From Variovorax sp. YR216 (lineage in GTDB: Bacteria; Pseudomonadota; Gammaproteobacteria; Burkholderiales; Burkholderiaceae_C): DNA of 64,000 bases. The translations under genes and the position numbers were made by a program. This document shows, in pieces, positions 3,996-11,070 of this stretch; within the stretch, counting starts at the first letter, position 1; each line of letters opens with the position of its first letter. The stretch is taken from the NCBI RefSeq assembly GCF_900107745.1, contig NZ_FNRO01000002.1:744001-808000 (forward strand), written 5' to 3'. The notes beneath the pieces are model-generated. The model was not told the origin of the DNA. It ran no database searches and was given only the letters and a program-made list of their open reading frames with translations.

Positions 3996-5219
3996 TTATC
4001 CCGGGAGCCGCTCCGATGTGGCTGGCAAAAGGGCATTCCGGCGGAACTCCGTTGCATAAAACAACAGCGCGACCACCGCGAAGCCGCCTCCCAGCAGGCT
4101 CAGCCCGTTCCAGCCATGGAAGGCATAGACGGCCGCTGCCAGCCCGGAGGCCACCGCCGCGCACAGAAAGATGAAAGTGAGAAAGAGCCCGTTGAGCCGC
4201 CCTCGCAGCTCGGGTGCGAGCACGTAGAGGCTGCGCAGGCTGAGCACATTGCAGAGCTGCACGGCACCATCGAGCAGGACGCCGGCCGCGACCAATGCGG
4301 TCAGCGACCTGAAATGCACGCCGACGGCGCCCAGCGCGAAGGACAGCAGCGCGGCGGTCATGGCCCAGCCGGTCGCCGGCCGCGTCAGGCCCCGATCCGC
4401 CAGGCGGCCGGCCCATGGCGCGGCAAGCGCGCCGGCCGCACCCGCCAGCGCGAAGAGCGCGATGCCGGCTTGTCCCATGCCGAACTCGTGCGCGAGCGCC
4501 AGCGGCACCGCGGTCCAGAACGCCTGGAAGCCCGCGAACATCATCCCCTGGTAGAAGGCCCGGCGCCGGAGCAGCGGCGTGCGCCAGACGATGCCCGGCA
4601 GCGATGCCATCGTGCGTGCATAGCCGAACGACGCGTGCGGCCGGCGCTGCGGCAGCGCCCGCCAGAGCACGAGGGCGAGAAGGGCAATCAGCACCGCGGA
4701 GATCGCGAACACCGCGCGCCACCCGAGCGCCGAAGCCACGACGCTGGAGAAAGGCCGCGCGAGCATGATGCCGGCCAGCAGCCCCGCCATGATGTTGCCG
4801 ACCACCTTGCCCCGCGTCGCTTCGGGCACCAGATGCGAGGCCAGCGGAACCAGCACTTGCGCAGCCACCGCGCAGGTCCCGACCAGGAAGGACGCGGCGA
4901 GAAAGGTTGCCGCGGAATTCGACAGCGCGATCCCCACCAGCCCCAGCACCGCGCCGGTCATCGCGAAGATGATCAGCCGGCGGTTCTCCACCACGTCGGC
5001 GAGCGGCACCAGCAGCAGCAGGCCGGTGCCGTAGCCCAGCTGTGTCAGGGTCATGATCAGCCCCGCAAGGCCCGCATGGAGTTGCAGCGTCGCGGCGATC
5101 GGCCCGATCAGCGGTTGCGCGAAGTAGATGTTGGCGACGCAGAGGCCGCATGCCACGGCGAACAGAAGCGTGAGGCCGGTGGAGAGTCCGGCGGGGGCGG
5201 GTGCGTGGGTGTGCGGCAA
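3996..5219 (-). CDS. MFS transporter
   Basis: 407-residue MFS protein with about 12 hydrophobic segments. Opening block FAVACGLCVANIYFAQPLIG is typical of the YnfM-like / arabinose-efflux group of small exporters, and a loop 2-3 motif LADVVENRRLI follows. Probable inner-membrane exporter with unknown substrate. It is upstream of and tandem with another MFS gene (29-base gap), and both genes have a GGGTTAACCC palindrome just 5' of the start codon. Divergent from the DUF2235 gene at 5399. Confidence 0.8.
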   Translation of the reverse strand: MPHTHAPAPAGLSTGLTLLFAVACGLCVANIYFAQPLIGPIAATLQLHAGLAGLIMTLTQLGYGTGLLLLVPLADVVENRRLIIFAMTGAVLGLVGIALSNSAATFLAASFLVGTCAVAAQVLVPLASHLVPEATRGKVVGNIMAGLLAGIMLARPFSSVVASALGWRAVFAISAVLIALLALVLWRALPQRRPHASFGYARTMASLPGIVWRTPLLRRRAFYQGMMFAGFQAFWTAVPLALAHEFGMGQAGIALFALAGAAGALAAPWAGRLADRGLTRPATGWAMTAALLSFALGAVGVHFRSLTALVAAGVLLDGAVQLCNVLSLRSLYVLAPELRGRLNGLFLTFIFLCAAVASGLAAAVYAFHGWNGLSLLGGGFAVVALLFYATEFRRNALLPATSERLPG

Positions 5220-5243
5220 GACGGGCTCTTTCGGTTCTTTTAG

Positions 5244-5253
5244 GGGTTAACCC
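5244..5253. promoter_or_regulatory. 10-bp palindrome GGGTTAACCC upstream of MFS gene
   Basis: Perfect palindrome GGGTTAACCC, 24 bases before the ATG of the 3996-5219 MFS gene, in the divergent region shared with the DUF2235 gene. It repeats the core of the element at 3982-3993. Putative operator only. Confidence 0.42.
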
Positions 5254-5398
5254 GAGGGCCCGGCACCTTAGCACTTCTGTCGCCTGCGTGCAGGGCGCCG
5301 GCCGGCATACAGCGAATGGCGCATGGCTCGCCGCGGGCGACGCGGCCACACTGCGTGTGCGCCGGCGGCGGCGCATTCAGGACGAAAGGGGGCGCCTC

Positions 5399-6547
5399 GT
5401 GTCGAAGAACATCATCTTCTGCGCCGACGGCACATGGAATGGACTGGGACAGGGCGATGGCCAGGAGGTGCAGGCCGATGCCACCAACGTGCTGCGCCTG
5501 TTCGCCGCGCTCGACGGTGACGTCACCGCCGATTCGCTGCGCAAGCAGGACGAGCAGGAGAAGGTCGCCGCCGGTCCGGACGCCAAGGTCACGCAGATCG
5601 CCAAGTACCTGCACGGCGTCGGCGATTCGCAGAACGTCATCCGCAAGATCCTCGGCGGTGTCTTCGGCGAGGGCTTCATCGAGCGCATCGTGCGCGGCTA
5701 TACGTTCATCTCGCGCAACTACGCGCCGGACGACCGCATCTACCTGGTCGGCTTCAGCCGCGGTGCCTATACGGTGCGGGCACTGGCCGGGATGATCGCC
5801 AAGATGGGCTTGCTGCCGCAGGACGCGATGCGCGGCGACGACGGCGCCTACGACCCCGAGAAGGCCTACAGGCTCGGCATCTTCGTGTGGGCGCGCTATC
5901 GCAGGCTGATGGGCAAGCAGAGCACGCTGCTCGGCTACCTGGAAGAATTCAAGTCCGAGACGATCGACCTGAACCGGCTGATGCAGAACGTCGGCATCGA
6001 GGCCGTCGCCGTCTGGGACACCGTCGGCGCGCTCGGCGTACCGACCTACGACCTGGCCGATGCCTCGAAGGTGGACATCTTCGAATTCGCGGACCGGGCG
6101 TTGTCGGTCAAGGTGAAATCGGGCTTCCATGCGCTCGCGATCGACGAGCAGCGCAGCGACTTCGAGCCGACCTTGTGGGACGACCGTGACGGCATCCAGC
6201 AGCGATGGTTCGCCGGCGCGCATGCCGACGTCGGTGGCGGCTACCCGACCTGGGACCTGGCGACCCTGTCGTTCGACTGGATGGTCGCGCGCCTGCAGGG
6301 CAGCGGCGTCGCGATGTCGCCGCAATACAAGGCGACCGACCCCTTCACCTTCGGTCCGATCCATACCCCGTATCGCGACCCGCCCTTCGACGTCCGGCCG
6401 CATGCGCCGCGCGTGCTCCCGGCGAATGCGCTGTTCCATCCGAGCGTGCAGGCGTATCTCGCGCAGTTCGCGGCCTACCAGCCGCCATCGAATCTCGCGC
6501 CGTTGCTCAATGGCCGGCAACTCGATCCGAGATTTGTCAAGGCGTAG
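5399..6547 (+). CDS. DUF2235 domain alpha/beta hydrolase (Tle1-like phospholipase fold)
   Basis: 382 residues from a GTG start at 5399, chosen because the family begins close to the strand NIIFCADGTWNG and a purine-rich GAAAGGGGG lies just upstream. The nucleophile elbow is LVGFSRGAYTVRALAG with Ser at residue 120, the GxSxG signature of DUF2235. The later motif WFAGAHADVGGGYPTWDLA supplies the conserved His/Asp region of the family. DUF2235 includes type VI secretion lipase effectors (Tle1), but no VgrG, PAAR or immunity gene is adjacent, so a cytoplasmic or envelope hydrolase role is just as possible. A small membrane protein gene follows at 6613. Confidence 0.8.
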   Translation: MSKNIIFCADGTWNGLGQGDGQEVQADATNVLRLFAALDGDVTADSLRKQDEQEKVAAGPDAKVTQIAKYLHGVGDSQNVIRKILGGVFGEGFIERIVRGYTFISRNYAPDDRIYLVGFSRGAYTVRALAGMIAKMGLLPQDAMRGDDGAYDPEKAYRLGIFVWARYRRLMGKQSTLLGYLEEFKSETIDLNRLMQNVGIEAVAVWDTVGALGVPTYDLADASKVDIFEFADRALSVKVKSGFHALAIDEQRSDFEPTLWDDRDGIQQRWFAGAHADVGGGYPTWDLATLSFDWMVARLQGSGVAMSPQYKATDPFTFGPIHTPYRDPPFDVRPHAPRVLPANALFHPSVQAYLAQFAAYQPPSNLAPLLNGRQLDPRFVKA

Positions 6548-6612
6548 GGAGTCGACGCCTCCATGCGTTGACTGAGGTACTTTCCGGCAACTCCATCCTG
6601 AAGGGCATCTCA

Positions 6613-6777
6613 ATGGCCAAGTACAAGTTCGTGAACACGTTGAGCTTCGGCGACATCTTCGTGCAGGCACTGATCTGGGCCATCCTGATCGTGATCACCT
6701 TCGGGCTCGCCACGCCTTTCTTCGCCTACTACTTTTTGAAGCTGATCATCAACAACACCGAACTTCACGAGGTCTGA
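6613..6777 (+). CDS. Small membrane protein, 54 residues (DUF6693-like)
   Basis: MAKYKFVNTLSFGDIFVQAL begins the protein, followed by a single strong hydrophobic stretch (about residues 19-46) and a conserved-looking tail LIINNTELHEV. It resembles the small DUF6693-type membrane proteins from memory. It starts 65 bases after the DUF2235 stop on the same strand, so the two may be co-transcribed. No function can be assigned. The start is the only ATG that gives a compact membrane protein. Confidence 0.65.
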   Translation: MAKYKFVNTLSFGDIFVQALIWAILIVITFGLATPFFAYYFLKLIINNTELHEV

Positions 6778-6803
6778 ACGCCTCGGGCGCAGAATCCACG
6801 ACC

Positions 6804-7172
6804 ATGAAGAAACTGATCACAGCGGCCGTGCTGGCCCTCGCCGGCCTGACGGGCTCCGGGACGGCGATGGCCCAGTGGCACAACAGCCCGCAGTTCGATC
6901 GCGACCTGCATTTCTGCAGCCGGAGCCACAACTTCGAGCGCTGCATGTGGGATCGCGGCTGGCAGCGTGGCCAGGGAAGGCGCTGGGTGCGTCGCGGGCC
7001 GGGCCAGAACTGGCACCAGCCTCCACCGCCGAACTGGCACCAGCCGCCGCCTCCACGCCGCAACCAGCCGAGGCTGAGCGACATGCAGCGGCGCGCGCTG
7101 GAGAACTGCAACTTCCTGCCGCCGGCCGATCAACCGAGGTGCCGCGCCACCGTCTGGTCGACGGTGCACTGA
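6804..7172 (+). CDS. Secreted Pro/Arg-rich hypothetical protein
   Basis: 122 residues with a Sec signal peptide ending AMA before QWHNSPQFDRD. The mature part is rich in Trp, Arg, Pro and His and contains a tandem imperfect repeat (NWHQPPPP twice, residues about 69-84). Four Cys residues (two around the CSRSHNFERC segment, two near the C-terminus in ENCNFLPPADQPRC) could form two disulfides in the periplasm. I do not recognise a family. It starts 26 bases after the small membrane protein gene. Confidence 0.65.
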   Translation: MKKLITAAVLALAGLTGSGTAMAQWHNSPQFDRDLHFCSRSHNFERCMWDRGWQRGQGRRWVRRGPGQNWHQPPPPNWHQPPPPRRNQPRLSDMQRRALENCNFLPPADQPRCRATVWSTVH

Positions 7173-7242
7173 AGGCCGATGCCGGCGAGGGCCGGCTCCG
7201 GGCTGGGACAATGCGGGGAACAAAGCGTTTTCGAGTTTCCCG

Positions 7243-8247
7243 ATGATCGACAAGGATCAACCCAATCAACCGCTCGCCGCGATGCGTGTGAGCGTGGCGC
7301 CGATGATGGACTGGACGGACCGCCACTGCCGCTACTTCCATCGCCTCCTCACGCGCCGCGCGCTGCTCTACACCGAGATGGTGACGACGGGCGCGCTGAT
7401 CCATGGCGACGTTCCGCGCCATCTGCGCTTCAACACCGAAGAGCATCCGGTCGCCCTGCAGCTCGGCGGCAGCGAGCCCGCGGATCTCGCGCAGTGCGCG
7501 AAGCTGGGGCAGGAATGGGGCTACGACGAGATCAACATCAACTGCGGCTGCCCGAGTGAACGGGTCCAGCGTGGCGCCTTCGGTGCCTGCCTGATGAACG
7601 AGCCGGACCTCGTCGCCGACTGCGTGAAGGCGATGGTCGATGCGGTGGATGTGCCGGTCACGGTCAAGCACCGCATCGGCATCGACAAGGTCGAGAGCTA
7701 CGAATTCGTGCGCGACTTCATTGGCAAGGTGAGCGAGGCGGGGTGCGACACCTTCATCGTCCACGCGCGCAATGCGTGGCTCAAGGGCCTGTCGCCGAAG
7801 CAGAACCGTGAAGTGCCGCCGCTTCGCTACGAGATCGTGCATCGGCTGAAGCACGAGTTTCCGGCGCTGCGGATTTCGATCAACGGCGGGCTGAACGACA
7901 ACGCCGAAATGTACGCGCACCTGCGCCTTCTCGATGGCGTGATGATCGGGCGCGAGGCCTATCACAACCCCTGGTGGCTCGCGCAGTGGGATGCAGCCTT
8001 CTTCGGCGAGGCGCCTTCCACGCTCACGCGCGAAGAAATCGAAGAGCAGATGTGCGACTACATGGTCCGCGAAGCCTCCGAGCACGGGACCCCGTGGTCG
8101 AACATCGCGCGCCACATGCTCGGGCTTCGCAATGGCCTTCCCGGTGCACGCCGCTGGCGACAGGTGTGGAGCGATCATCGGCTCAAGTCGCACGCGCCGC
8201 ACGAAGTCATGGCGATCGCGCGCGAGCCAGCCGCGCAGGCGGCCTGA
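7243..8247 (+). CDS. dusA: tRNA-dihydrouridine(20/20a) synthase DusA
   Basis: 334-residue FMN enzyme that reduces uridines in the D-loop of tRNA with NADPH. The N-terminal block VSVAPMMDWTDRHCRYFHRL, the barrel motif LQLGGSEPADLAQCAKLG and ININCGCPSERVQRGAFGAC (catalytic Cys in GCPS...GACL) identify the DusA subgroup rather than DusB or DusC. VTVKHRIGID and ISINGGL are the phosphate/tRNA-contact strands. A short GC hairpin (7181-7196, GCCGGC-GAGG-GCCGGC) lies just upstream, with no T-run. Ends 15 bases from the convergent dioxygenase gene. Confidence 0.93.
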   Translation: MIDKDQPNQPLAAMRVSVAPMMDWTDRHCRYFHRLLTRRALLYTEMVTTGALIHGDVPRHLRFNTEEHPVALQLGGSEPADLAQCAKLGQEWGYDEININCGCPSERVQRGAFGACLMNEPDLVADCVKAMVDAVDVPVTVKHRIGIDKVESYEFVRDFIGKVSEAGCDTFIVHARNAWLKGLSPKQNREVPPLRYEIVHRLKHEFPALRISINGGLNDNAEMYAHLRLLDGVMIGREAYHNPWWLAQWDAAFFGEAPSTLTREEIEEQMCDYMVREASEHGTPWSNIARHMLGLRNGLPGARRWRQVWSDHRLKSHAPHEVMAIAREPAAQAA

Positions 8248-8262: not shown

Positions 8263-9141
8263 TCAGGCCGCCATGAGGTGTGCCTCGGGCACGTCTTCGA
8301 TCGTGGTGCGGCGAAGTTCGCGCCGCTCGCTGATGTCGTAGCGCCGTCCGCGGTGGAGCGTGCTGCGGTTGTCCCACATCACGAGGTCGTGCACCTGCCA
8401 TTCGTGGCGGTAGACATGTTCGCGCTGCGTGGCGTGTTCCAGCAGGTCCTGCAGGTACATGCGGCCTTCCGCGATCGGCCAGCCGATGATCTCCCGCGCA
8501 TGCACGCCGACGAAGAGCAGCTTGCGCCCTGAGCCCGGATGCGTCTGCACCAGCGGCCACACCGCGGGCGGGATGGTCTTCTTCTGATCGTCGGTATAGG
8601 CATCGTCGCCCAGCAGGATGCGCGTGTGCAGCGCGAAATGTTCTGCGCTGAGGCCTTCGACCTCGGCCCGGGTGCGCTCGGGCAGGGTGTCGTACGCCGC
8701 GCGCAGGTCGGCGAATTCCGTGGTGCCGCCCCAACTCGGAAGAACGAGCGCATGCAGCATCGAATAGGCGGCGCGTGGGTTCTGGAACGAACTGTCGCTG
8801 TGCCAGAGCTGATTGGCGAAGTTCGAGAGGTTCTTGGGCGAATCGCGTCGCGCGACATTGCCTTGCGCGTCGACATTGGAGATGTCGATCAGGCGCTCGT
8901 CGTCGAGTCGTTCCTGCCGCTTGAACACCTTCTTGAGGCCGAGATCCAGCGGGCCGAAGGACTTGGCGAAGTCGATCTGCTGCTGGCCGGTGAGCGCCTG
9001 GCCGCGCCAGACGAGCACGGCGTATTCGTTCATGGCTGCGTTGATCTGCCGCACCTCCGTGTCGGAAAGTGGGCGCGTGATGTCGATGCCGCTGGCCTCG
9101 GCGACGAAGACTGGATGGAGGGGTTTGAGCAGGAGGGACAT
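8263..9141 (-). CDS. tfdA: TfdA-like Fe(II)/2-oxoglutarate-dependent dioxygenase
   Basis: 292 residues. The iron triad is visible as His114-x-Asp116 (ANQLWHSDSSFQ) and His263 (STLHRGRRYD), with the 2-oxoglutarate-binding Arg274 (SERRELRRTT). Sequence blocks such as FANQLWHSDSSFQ, GSGRKLLFVG, EHATQREHVYRH and VMWDNRSTLHRGRRYDIS are very close to the plasmid-borne 2,4-D dioxygenase TfdA as I remember it, much closer than to TauD. It would cleave an ether or related bond of a carboxylated aromatic or aliphatic substrate; the actual substrate is not known. The start at 9141 is preceded by a GGAG-like site. It lies 31 bases after a Bug-family binding protein, both divergent from an IclR regulator. 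Confidence 0.83.
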   Translation of the reverse strand: MSLLLKPLHPVFVAEASGIDITRPLSDTEVRQINAAMNEYAVLVWRGQALTGQQQIDFAKSFGPLDLGLKKVFKRQERLDDERLIDISNVDAQGNVARRDSPKNLSNFANQLWHSDSSFQNPRAAYSMLHALVLPSWGGTTEFADLRAAYDTLPERTRAEVEGLSAEHFALHTRILLGDDAYTDDQKKTIPPAVWPLVQTHPGSGRKLLFVGVHAREIIGWPIAEGRMYLQDLLEHATQREHVYRHEWQVHDLVMWDNRSTLHRGRRYDISERRELRRTTIEDVPEAHLMAA

Positions 9142-9172
9142 GGTTTGCGGAGGATTGGATCGTTGAGAGCGC

Positions 9173-10162
9173 TCACTCGGACTGGATGCCGGCTTCATTG
9201 ATGACGCGCGCCCAACGGGTCATTTCGGATTGCACGAAGGCGTCGAACTGCTGGGGCGTGGAAGCGACGACCTCCATGCCCTGTTCCTCGATGCGCTTTC
9301 GCATCTCGGGGTTGCGCAACACTTTTTCGGTGTCCTGCTGGATCTTCTGGACGATGGTGCGCGGCGTTCCGTGGGGCGCGACGAAGCCCAGCAGTGCGTT
9401 GACGTTGAAGCCGGGGATCGTCTCCGCGACCGTCGGATAGTTGAACCCTTCGACGCGCTTCGGGCCCATCGTCGCGATCATCTTCATGCGCCCGGCCTTC
9501 ACGAACGGGAGGACGGACAGGAACGGGTCGACCACGATGTCGATGCGCCCGCCCATGAGTTCCGTGTGCGCGGGAGCGCTTCCCTTGAAGGGCGAGTGGA
9601 GCATGTCGAAGCCCGCTTCGCGCTTGAGCAATTCGGCGCCGAGGTGGGTCGTGCTCCCGGCCCCCGGGGTGCCGTAGGTCAGCTTGCCGGGGTTCTTTTT
9701 GGCGTAGGCGATGAGCTCCGCCAGCGTGTTGAAGGGCGCATCCGGGCGGGCGACGATGGCCAGTTGCAGGTTTGCGATCTGCGTGATGCCCTGGAGGTCC
9801 TTGACGGTGTCGTAGGGCAGCGTCTTGCGCAGGGACGGATTCACGGCAAAGGAGGAGTTCACCATCCCGATGGTCAGGCCGTCCGGCGGTGCCTTGGCGA
9901 CGAAGTCGACGCCGATCGCGGTGCCTGCGCCGGGCTTGTAGTCGACGAGCACCGGCTGGCCCCACATCTCCTGCAATTTCTGGGCGATCAGTCGGCCGAC
10001 GGTGTCGGTCGGTCCGCCAGGCGCGAAGGGAATGATGATCTTCACGGGCCCCTTCGGAAAATCCTGGGCGGCGGCGTTGAATCCGATGCCCAGGCCTGCG
10101 GCCATCAGGGTGCCCGTCAGGAGGAACCCGCGACGGGATGTGGGAGTTGCTTGTCTCGTCAT
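9173..10162 (-). CDS. Bug-family (TctC-type) tripartite tricarboxylate transporter solute-binding protein
   Basis: 329 residues. The N-terminus holds a twin-arginine motif (TSRRGFLLTG) followed by a hydrophobic stretch, suggesting Tat export. The mature start FPKGPVKIIIPFAPGGPTDT and the later blocks LTYGTPGAGSTTHLGAELL and VDPFLSVLPFVKAGRMK are classic Bug-family ligand-binding segments. These periplasmic proteins bind small carboxylates. No TctA/TctB membrane genes are adjacent, as is common for Bug orphans in Burkholderiales. Together with the downstream dioxygenase it forms a likely two-gene operon under the divergent IclR protein. Confidence 0.88.
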   Translation of the reverse strand: MTRQATPTSRRGFLLTGTLMAAGLGIGFNAAAQDFPKGPVKIIIPFAPGGPTDTVGRLIAQKLQEMWGQPVLVDYKPGAGTAIGVDFVAKAPPDGLTIGMVNSSFAVNPSLRKTLPYDTVKDLQGITQIANLQLAIVARPDAPFNTLAELIAYAKKNPGKLTYGTPGAGSTTHLGAELLKREAGFDMLHSPFKGSAPAHTELMGGRIDIVVDPFLSVLPFVKAGRMKMIATMGPKRVEGFNYPTVAETIPGFNVNALLGFVAPHGTPRTIVQKIQQDTEKVLRNPEMRKRIEEQGMEVVASTPQQFDAFVQSEMTRWARVINEAGIQSE

Positions 10163-10173
10163 GATGATTTTAT

Positions 10174-10253
10174 GGAACAGTGTTTTGAAATAATAGCGAA
10201 CACTTGACCTGCGTCAACGACTTTTTGAGAAAATATGAAACATCGTTTTGAAA
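10174..10253. promoter_or_regulatory. Paired 17-bp direct repeats, candidate IclR operators
   Basis: Two copies of a 17-mer lie in the divergent region: GGAACAGTGTTTTGAAA at 10174-10190 and GAAACATCGTTTTGAAA at 10237-10253 (14 of 17 identical). Each contains a short inverted repeat (AACA-G-TGTT; AAAC-N3-GTTT). One copy lies next to the Bug gene start and the other touches the IclR gene start, the arrangement expected for a regulator controlling both directions. The true iclR start may be an ATG slightly inside (10267 or 10273). Confidence 0.5.
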
Positions 10254-10254
10254 G

Positions 10255-11070
10255 ATGGGTGTGCCAATGCCAATGACCGATCCTGTGGGCGGTTCCGCGA
10301 AGGACGAAGTGACCGCATTGGCGCGGGGGCTGGCCCTGCTCAAGGTCGTCGGCGACGCGGCCGGTCCGCTCAGCAACCGTGACCTGGCCGATGCAACGGG
10401 CATCCCCAAGGCCACTGTTTCGCGGCTCGCCGCAACGCTGGTGGCCAATGGCTATCTGAGGCAGTCGGCCGATACCGAGCGCTTCACTCTCGGCCCGGCG
10501 CTGCTCGACATGAGCACCCGGTACCTGCGGCACTTCGATCTGCGTTCACTGGCGCGGCCGCACCTCACCGCCTTGGCCGAGTTCGCGGGTGCCAGCGTTC
10601 ACGTGGGGGTGCGCGATGAACTCGACATGCTCATCATCGATTCGATCCGGCCGCGCACGGCACTCATCACCTCGCGCATCGAAGTCGGTTCGCGCATGAC
10701 GATCGCGACTTCGGCAGCGGGGCGCGCGTATCTCGCGGCGCTGCCTCCAGCAGAGCGAGACGACCTGCTCGGCCAGATCAGGCTTGCGAGCGGCGAAAAC
10801 TGGGCCGAACTGGAGCCGCGGATCATGGCCGGCATCGAAGAGCACGCGCGGCTGGGGTACTGCGCTTCGTTCGGGGAATGGCACCCGCACATTCATGCGC
10901 TGGGCTTCGCGCTTCGCGGGCCGCGCGGCGAACGCTACGCGGTGAGCTGCGGGGGGCCGGCCTATCTGCTGCCCAGGGAGGCGATGGTCGGACGCATCGC
11001 GCCGCGCCTGCTCGAAACCGTGCAGCAGATCAACGCCGAGATGGGGATCGCCGCCCCCGAGGCCGGCTGA
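10255..11070 (+). CDS. IclR-family transcriptional regulator
   Basis: 271 residues. An N-terminal winged helix-turn-helix (about residues 17-80: ALARGLALLKVV, LSNRDLADATGIPKATVSRL, RFTLGPALLDMS) is followed by a GAF-like ligand-binding domain with the family block SRMTIATSAAGRAYLAALPP. It is divergent from the Bug/TfdA-like operon and is its likely local regulator. Several in-frame ATG codons occur at the start (10255, 10267, 10273), and I see no decisive ribosome binding site. It ends 6 bases from the convergent GntR gene. Confidence 0.9.
   Translation: MGVPMPMTDPVGGSAKDEVTALARGLALLKVVGDAAGPLSNRDLADATGIPKATVSRLAATLVANGYLRQSADTERFTLGPALLDMSTRYLRHFDLRSLARPHLTALAEFAGASVHVGVRDELDMLIIDSIRPRTALITSRIEVGSRMTIATSAAGRAYLAALPPAERDDLLGQIRLASGENWAELEPRIMAGIEEHARLGYCASFGEWHPHIHALGFALRGPRGERYAVSCGGPAYLLPREAMVGRIAPRLLETVQQINAEMGIAAPEAG

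Follow-up and report, generated by a model that had tools for sequence, protein, structure and literature searches.

The window, a stretch of 64,000 nucleotides lying in contig 28 of the 7.37-Mb genome of Variovorax sp. YR216, carries at positions 8263-11070 a chromosomal three-gene unit consisting of a TfdA-like dioxygenase, a Bug-type periplasmic binding protein and an IclR-family regulator. The architecture of the unit is well supported by sequence comparison. Gene order and its conservation, the clade of the dioxygenase, its catalytic residues and the operator pattern can all be read from the sequences compared. We estimate a probability of about 0.5 that the unit represents a repressor-controlled two-gene operon for the uptake and oxidation of an aryloxyacetate-like or related aromatic acid. 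An earlier reading of this DNA from its letters alone (the sequence-only reading) had proposed the three genes, all of which were found at the positions it gave. The features are as follows:

8263..9141, minus strand: TfdA-like Fe(II)/2-oxoglutarate dioxygenase, 292 amino acids (aa) (Pfam, ortholog comparison for the start, trees, catalytic residues)
9173..10162, minus strand: Bug/TctC periplasmic binding protein, 329 aa (Pfam TctC; upstream position kept in orthologous loci)
10171..10190, minus strand: candidate operator O1, TTTCAAAACACTGTTCCATA (shared-site pattern searches)
10190..10217, minus strand: putative bug promoter, sigma-70-like, TTGACG, 16 bp, TATTAT (pattern match)
10234..10253, minus strand: candidate operator O2, TTTCAAAACGATGTTTCATA (shared-site pattern searches)
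10255..11070, plus strand: IclR-family regulator, up to 271 aa (Pfam HTH_IclR and IclR_C; TIGR02431 score)

The bug gene is located upstream of the dioxygenase gene on the same strand, with 31 bp between bug and the dioxygenase start, and iclR is divergent. The start at 9141 corresponds to Met20 of the longest open reading frame (ORF; 8263-9198) and was preferred because an MSLxLKP-like N-terminus is common to the orthologs while the preceding 19 residues are not. With this start, the numbering of His114, Asp116, His263 and Arg274 in the sequence-only reading is correct, and all four residues are present. The dioxygenase thus has the TfdA-type residues, namely the His-Asp-His triad and the Thr and Arg for 2-oxoglutarate. 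H114, D116, H263, T141, R274, R278, H201, and H214 are invariant in an alignment of 32 sequences. From the literature on TfdA and TauD we take H114, D116 and H263 to be the metal triad and T141 and R274 to be 2-oxoglutarate-binding. The protein matches PF02668 (TauD/TfdA superfamily) with 205.5 bits against a cut-off of 27 (E 1.8e-60). It shares the metal and 2-oxoglutarate residues and Arg278 with the TfdAs of the plasmids pJP4, pEST4011, and pX32-5, to which it is 57.3-59.6% identical (59.1% for pJP4, 59.6% and 57.3% for the other two). The identity is 45.2% to AAD-2 (5bke), 37.5% to SdpA, 36.8% to Escherichia coli TauD, and 35.8% to RdpA. Blocks nearly identical to plasmid TfdA, as noted in the sequence-only reading, do exist, the longest identical run comprising 14 residues (NFANQLWHSDSSFQ), but at 59.1% near-identity does not extend to the whole protein. 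The structure model has a mean predicted local distance difference test (pLDDT) score of 91.4. Its best fold match, with a template modelling (TM) score of 0.92, is AAD-2 (PDB 5bke; an aryloxyalkanoate dioxygenase by title), which nevertheless belongs to another major branch.

In a tree of 152 sequences the window enzyme is part of a clade of 48 (SH-like approximate likelihood ratio test, SH-aLRT, 100), which is nested in a superclade of 68 (99) that includes plasmid TfdA. SdpA, RdpA, TauD, and seven other TauD-family proteins of the genome are found outside the superclade. From this tree 26 loci had been omitted as repeats or fragments (L008-L028, L084, L089, L096, L125, L167), as well as the short L085. 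A second tree, calculated with bootstraps from 64 of the 152 sequences, excluded the longest branches (5j92, L030, L098) and took in five of the genome's seven other TauD-family proteins. It contains the window clade (23 sequences, 100/100), the superclade (37 sequences, 100/97), TfdA (100/100), and, grouped with TfdA at 96/89, a relative from Burkholderia cenocepacia; AAD-2 is on a separate branch (17 sequences, 97/94). The window enzyme is accordingly not a member of the plasmid TfdA clade, but both clades stand beside each other in the TfdA superclade. The phylogeny groups it with TfdA and apart from TauD, SdpA and RdpA, and a position among TauD or other sulfonate dioxygenases, the outcome that the sequence-only reading had set against its own proposal, was not obtained. 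Its suggestion of an ancestral enzyme cannot be upheld because the deepest branchings within the superclade are weakly supported (80/69 and lower). Three members of the window clade (L076-L078) bear labels of metagenome-assembled genomes such as Alphaproteobacteria, which call for caution.

The gap between bug and iclR is 92 bp long and has a G+C content of 34%, compared to 65-68% in the genes and 0.66 in the window. It contains two copies of the near-palindrome TTTCRRAACNNNGTTYCAWW, which is common to the bug upstream regions. O1 starts on the final base of the bug -10 hexamer, and O2 is found 63 bp from O1 just ahead of the earliest possible iclR start, which is uncertain given a second ATG at 10267. 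A promoter resembling TTGACG-16-TATTAT was matched in seven of the nine regions tried, which are the window and six of eight relatives, and none was matched in L045 and L048. The core operator pattern has 53 matches in 49 loci (711,100 bp, one strand), of which 45 are in bug upstream regions. Where a divergent iclR is present (30 regions, counting that of the window), the best site always reaches 17-20 of 20, while the score is 13-15 in 14 of the 16 usable regions that lack a visible iclR. Because the consensus was built from the scored regions these scores are partly circular, although this circularity weighs less on the contrast between regions that have iclR and those that lack it; L079, which starts inside bug and whose operator entry was taken from the wrong stretch, was excluded. 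A second site scoring at least 16 is present in 19 of the 30 iclR regions at a spacing of 40-43, 53, or 63 bp (about four, five, and six helical turns) and absent from the other 11; in L071 the second site is weak and 30 bp away. The exact pattern TTNNRRAACNNNGTTYCAWW matches twice in the 7.37-Mb genome, both times in the bug-iclR gap, and the reversed control does not match at all. With one mismatch, four additional genome sites appear. The operator pattern therefore tracks the presence of iclR and, as a sequence pattern, fits a local single-target repressor, which may have weaker sites in addition. The regulator itself has both IclR domains (PF09339, 61.1 bits, E 8.5e-17; PF01614, 72.3 bits, E 4.8e-20; both above cut-off) in common with PcaR, PcaU, and PobR. 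The model of these regulators, TIGR02431, is also its best NCBIfam match, but with 116.5 bits it stays below the cut-off of 284.75 and falls outside this subfamily, and it has its own operator and gene partner.

Bug is found immediately upstream of the dioxygenase and on the same strand in 46 of 49 named orthologous loci, 29 of which also have the divergent IclR; the 49 loci do not include L096, a fragment of an ortholog. The chromosomal location that the sequence-only reading had pointed out is borne out, and the association with Bug and IclR is real and conserved. On the stretches of the three exceptions (L076-L078) Bug was not matched, and L023 (genome G024) shows no match to it between its dioxygenase and IclR genes. 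Some loci stop near the genes, and an absent neighbour is no proof of absence there. Outside the clade, Bug adjoins the dioxygenase in L124, L143, L144, and L147. None of the TfdA genes on pJP4, pX32-5, and pEST4011 has an adjoining Bug, and the same is true of the dioxygenase in the B. cenocepacia locus. A single Bug adjacency means little; it is the recurrence across hosts that carries weight. In L124, from the megaplasmid of Variovorax paradoxus VAI-C (4097-8003), the relative is 56.5% identical, and the genes, all on one strand, are arranged as IclR, Bug, dioxygenase, Bug.

The Bug protein matches PF03401 with 260.2 bits against a cut-off of 27 (E 3.1e-77), and its signal peptide, judged by eye, contains a twin-arginine-like SRRGF. 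Among structures of the TctC family, to which TphC also belongs, the best matches are 2dvz, 2qpq (Bug27), 2f5x (BugD), and 8hka (terephthalate binding protein) with E values from 6e-62 to 5e-55. In contrast to tripartite systems there is no tctAB beside the window bug: contig 28 has no TctA match, and the genome's four TctA membrane subunits are encoded on contigs 20, 20, 12, and 5. The sequence-only reading had suggested that the Bug protein may supply the substrate of the dioxygenase; this could not be established, given that no transporter gene adjoins and that the genome has at least 150 Bug/TctC proteins (150 scored of 176 candidates) but only four TctA. That a Bug can serve uptake in the genus Variovorax follows from V. 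paradoxus, in which a TctC protein is reported to be required for the uptake of thiodipropionic acid, a dicarboxylic acid (PMC8102459).

In the mechanism that we infer for repression, effector, transport, and the reaction with its substrate, IclR would bind both operators, one overlapping the -10/start region, and would thereby repress the divergent bug promoter and probably also the iclR gene itself. An aromatic acid would release IclR, so that the operon would be induced by its substrate. In the periplasm, Bug would capture this acid or a related one, which an unlinked TctAB or another carrier would take up, and the cytoplasmic dioxygenase would then oxidise the acid with Fe(II), O2, and 2-oxoglutarate. 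The likeliest reaction would be the hydroxylation of the carbon beside the ether oxygen of an aryloxyacetate-like acid, yielding a phenol and glyoxylate, because the clade is bracketed by TfdA and AAD-2/TfdA-alpha. By the same bracketing some aryloxyacetate activity is at most plausible. The trees held no sequence labelled TfdA-alpha, whose assignment to the AAD-2 branch is our presumption. For TfdA-alpha a weak dioxygenase activity on 2,4-dichlorophenoxyacetic acid (2,4-D) is reported (PMC8446748).

Several observations weigh against the operon reading. Compared to TfdA the clade has fixed changes (A82E and N172H in 48 of 48 sequences, A213V in 47, S216R in 42, K95 being retained in only eight), and these sequence differences may signal another substrate. 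When the ORFs of 49 orthologous loci were clustered together with those of 34 others, no transporter or pathway gene recurred with the unit. L123 (B. cenocepacia, NZ_CP091014.1, 1915-10074) is the nearest relative of plasmid TfdA (65% identity). Its gene stands in a tight row with genes for LysR, an IlvD/EDD dehydratase, an MFS transporter, the two parts of aconitase X, and an FAD oxidoreductase, a context that suggests a very different substrate. Because this relative sits among dehydratase and aconitase X genes, substrates may differ within the superclade. The pairing of Bug and dioxygenase is also not restricted to the clade, as a Bug gene precedes another dioxygenase gene of the genome (L006) by 35 bp, and Bugs abound in general. 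Concerning the operators, two regions without visible iclR score high (L049 with 18 and L071, near a contig edge, with 19), and the phasing of the sites is not specific to 10.5 bp, the vector length being 0.87 for 10.5 bp, 0.80 for 10 bp, and 0.90 for 11 bp in loci that are related. L006 is a second TauD-family dioxygenase (C18:27574-28386; its Bug at C18:28421-29239) and is far from TfdA in the tree.

Alternatively, the enzyme might simply hydroxylate a natural aromatic or aliphatic carboxylate without ether cleavage, and the cleavage of 2,4-D by TfdA would be a later specialisation. We regard this as a serious possibility at somewhat less than even odds. It would account for the clade-fixed differences from TfdA and for the varied contexts in the superclade, such as aconitase X and IlvD/EDD by the B. 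cenocepacia relative and the CoA-thioester enzymes near L064. However, the enzymes that bracket the clade, TfdA and, weakly, TfdA-alpha, act on 2,4-D, and His201, His214, and Arg278 are retained throughout. It is unlikely that Bug acts as a sensor in the periplasm, or is an unlinked neighbour, and delivers no substrate to the dioxygenase: its position directly upstream in the great majority of loci across divergent hosts speaks against this, although the excess of Bugs over TctA subunits in the genome and the loci without a Bug match (L076-L078, and L023 between dioxygenase and IclR) would be in agreement with it.

Two further explanations concern the origin of the dioxygenase. A misplaced taurine or sulfonate dioxygenase of the TauD type could be suspected from the Pfam family name, which spans both groups, and from the NCBIfam matches, which are TauD-like models only. 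But the equivalog model scores 155 bits against a cut-off of 313, the identity to E. coli TauD is far below that to TfdA, and both trees disagree, so that this highly improbable assignment is rejected. That the unit is left over from a 2,4-D plasmid cluster which entered the chromosome might be suspected because pJP4 likewise has an iclR gene near tfdA. This IclR matches that of the window, however, over 154 aa at 29% only, the dioxygenases form a separate clade of 48 sequences, and the G+C content of the genes (0.65-0.68) is that of the window (0.66). Moreover, Variovorax KK3 holds both a window ortholog (L043) and a plasmid-type TfdA (L091). On the grounds of clade, composition, and the strain with both enzyme types, we reject a plasmid remnant as extremely improbable.

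As to the substrate of the proposed operon, the pathway genes give few hints. The sequence-only reading had noted that genes for a chlorophenol hydroxylase or ring cleavage are missing from the window, which agrees with searches for TfdB-like proteins and PF00775 that were empty there, extradiol enzymes not having been part of these searches. The intradiol dioxygenases (PF00775; eight genome matches, seven above the cut-off) and the relatives of plasmid TfdB (14 genome matches, the best at 35% identity, with no close TfdB in the genome) are all encoded outside the window. Apart from Bug and IclR, the recurrent partners of the orthologs are dusA, gntR, the mutase, and the genes adjoining the mutase, these only in part, and a Pfam scan of 30 chosen neighbours gave mixed contexts. 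The neighbour lists are incomplete, since the first ORF caller was poor at high-GC loci and the codon-based caller, trained on the window, failed at several low-GC loci. Beside the Limnohabitans ortholog (L063) lie a second Bug and a Rieske oxygenase of the VanA type, and at L064 a CoA-transferase, acyl-CoA dehydrogenases, and an enoyl-CoA hydratase lie ahead of Bug; as clues to the substrate both are only suggestive.

The types of the parts are all known. Plasmid TfdA differs from the window enzyme in being plasmid-borne together with degradation genes, in lacking an adjoining Bug, and in forming a separate clade. The IclR gene near tfdA on pJP4 has been treated in a study of aromatic regulation in Betaproteobacteria, whose passages considered here describe the protein as distant from PobR and PcaR and as modulating tfd genes, and do not mention Variovorax (PMC6449761). 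In the titles, abstract openings, and some passages of the literature found, neither the operon nor the combination of the clade with a Bug, a regulator, and operators is described. On plasmid pMSHV of Sphingobium herbicidovorans (L122, 6073-10722), an SdpA-like dioxygenase is encoded near a TctC-type binding protein gene and a maleylacetate reductase.

To our knowledge the natural role of TfdA-type enzymes is open, and the titles and abstract openings of the literature contained nothing that addresses it. With the unit, a chromosomal clade beside TfdA brings along its own binding protein and an apparently single-target regulator. Because binding protein, regulator with two mapped candidate operators, and enzyme occur together, the substrate of the unit should be directly approachable. 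The chromosomal Bug-linked dioxygenases of the superclade might even be the stock from which plasmid TfdA was recruited, the operon of the Comamonadaceae keeping the original cleavage of a plant-derived aryloxyacetate-like acid sensed by IclR. This scenario is doubtful, but if it were true, the effector and ligand of the unit would reveal the role of TfdA before herbicides.

In the window the unit is flanked on the left by dusA (NCBIfam equivalog model) and on the right by a GntR/FCD regulator followed by a methylmalonyl-CoA mutase, so that the housekeeping-type context mentioned in the sequence-only reading is indeed present; the names of the mutase and of MeaB were judged from the protein sequences without a profile scan. 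Full-length orthologs of at least 80% identity are encoded in 18 of the 101 genomes of the genus, its own included, and partial ones in two more (G046, G076), while GntR was found in 94 of the 101. The site between dusA and gntR was surveyed in the 30 best-matching GntR loci. IclR and Bug are beside GntR in seven of these, and dusA directly adjoins GntR in 15, leaving the site empty. Three loci hold remnants of the unit, two having IclR without Bug and dioxygenase (L206, L210) and one a decayed dioxygenase and IclR (L203), and five are different or cut. The unit is patchy in the genus and comes and goes at one site. Empty sites are found in L183 and L184, whose GntR most resembles that of the window among the other genomes. 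Of the two orphan IclR loci, L206 is without the operator and L210 retains it (19/20).

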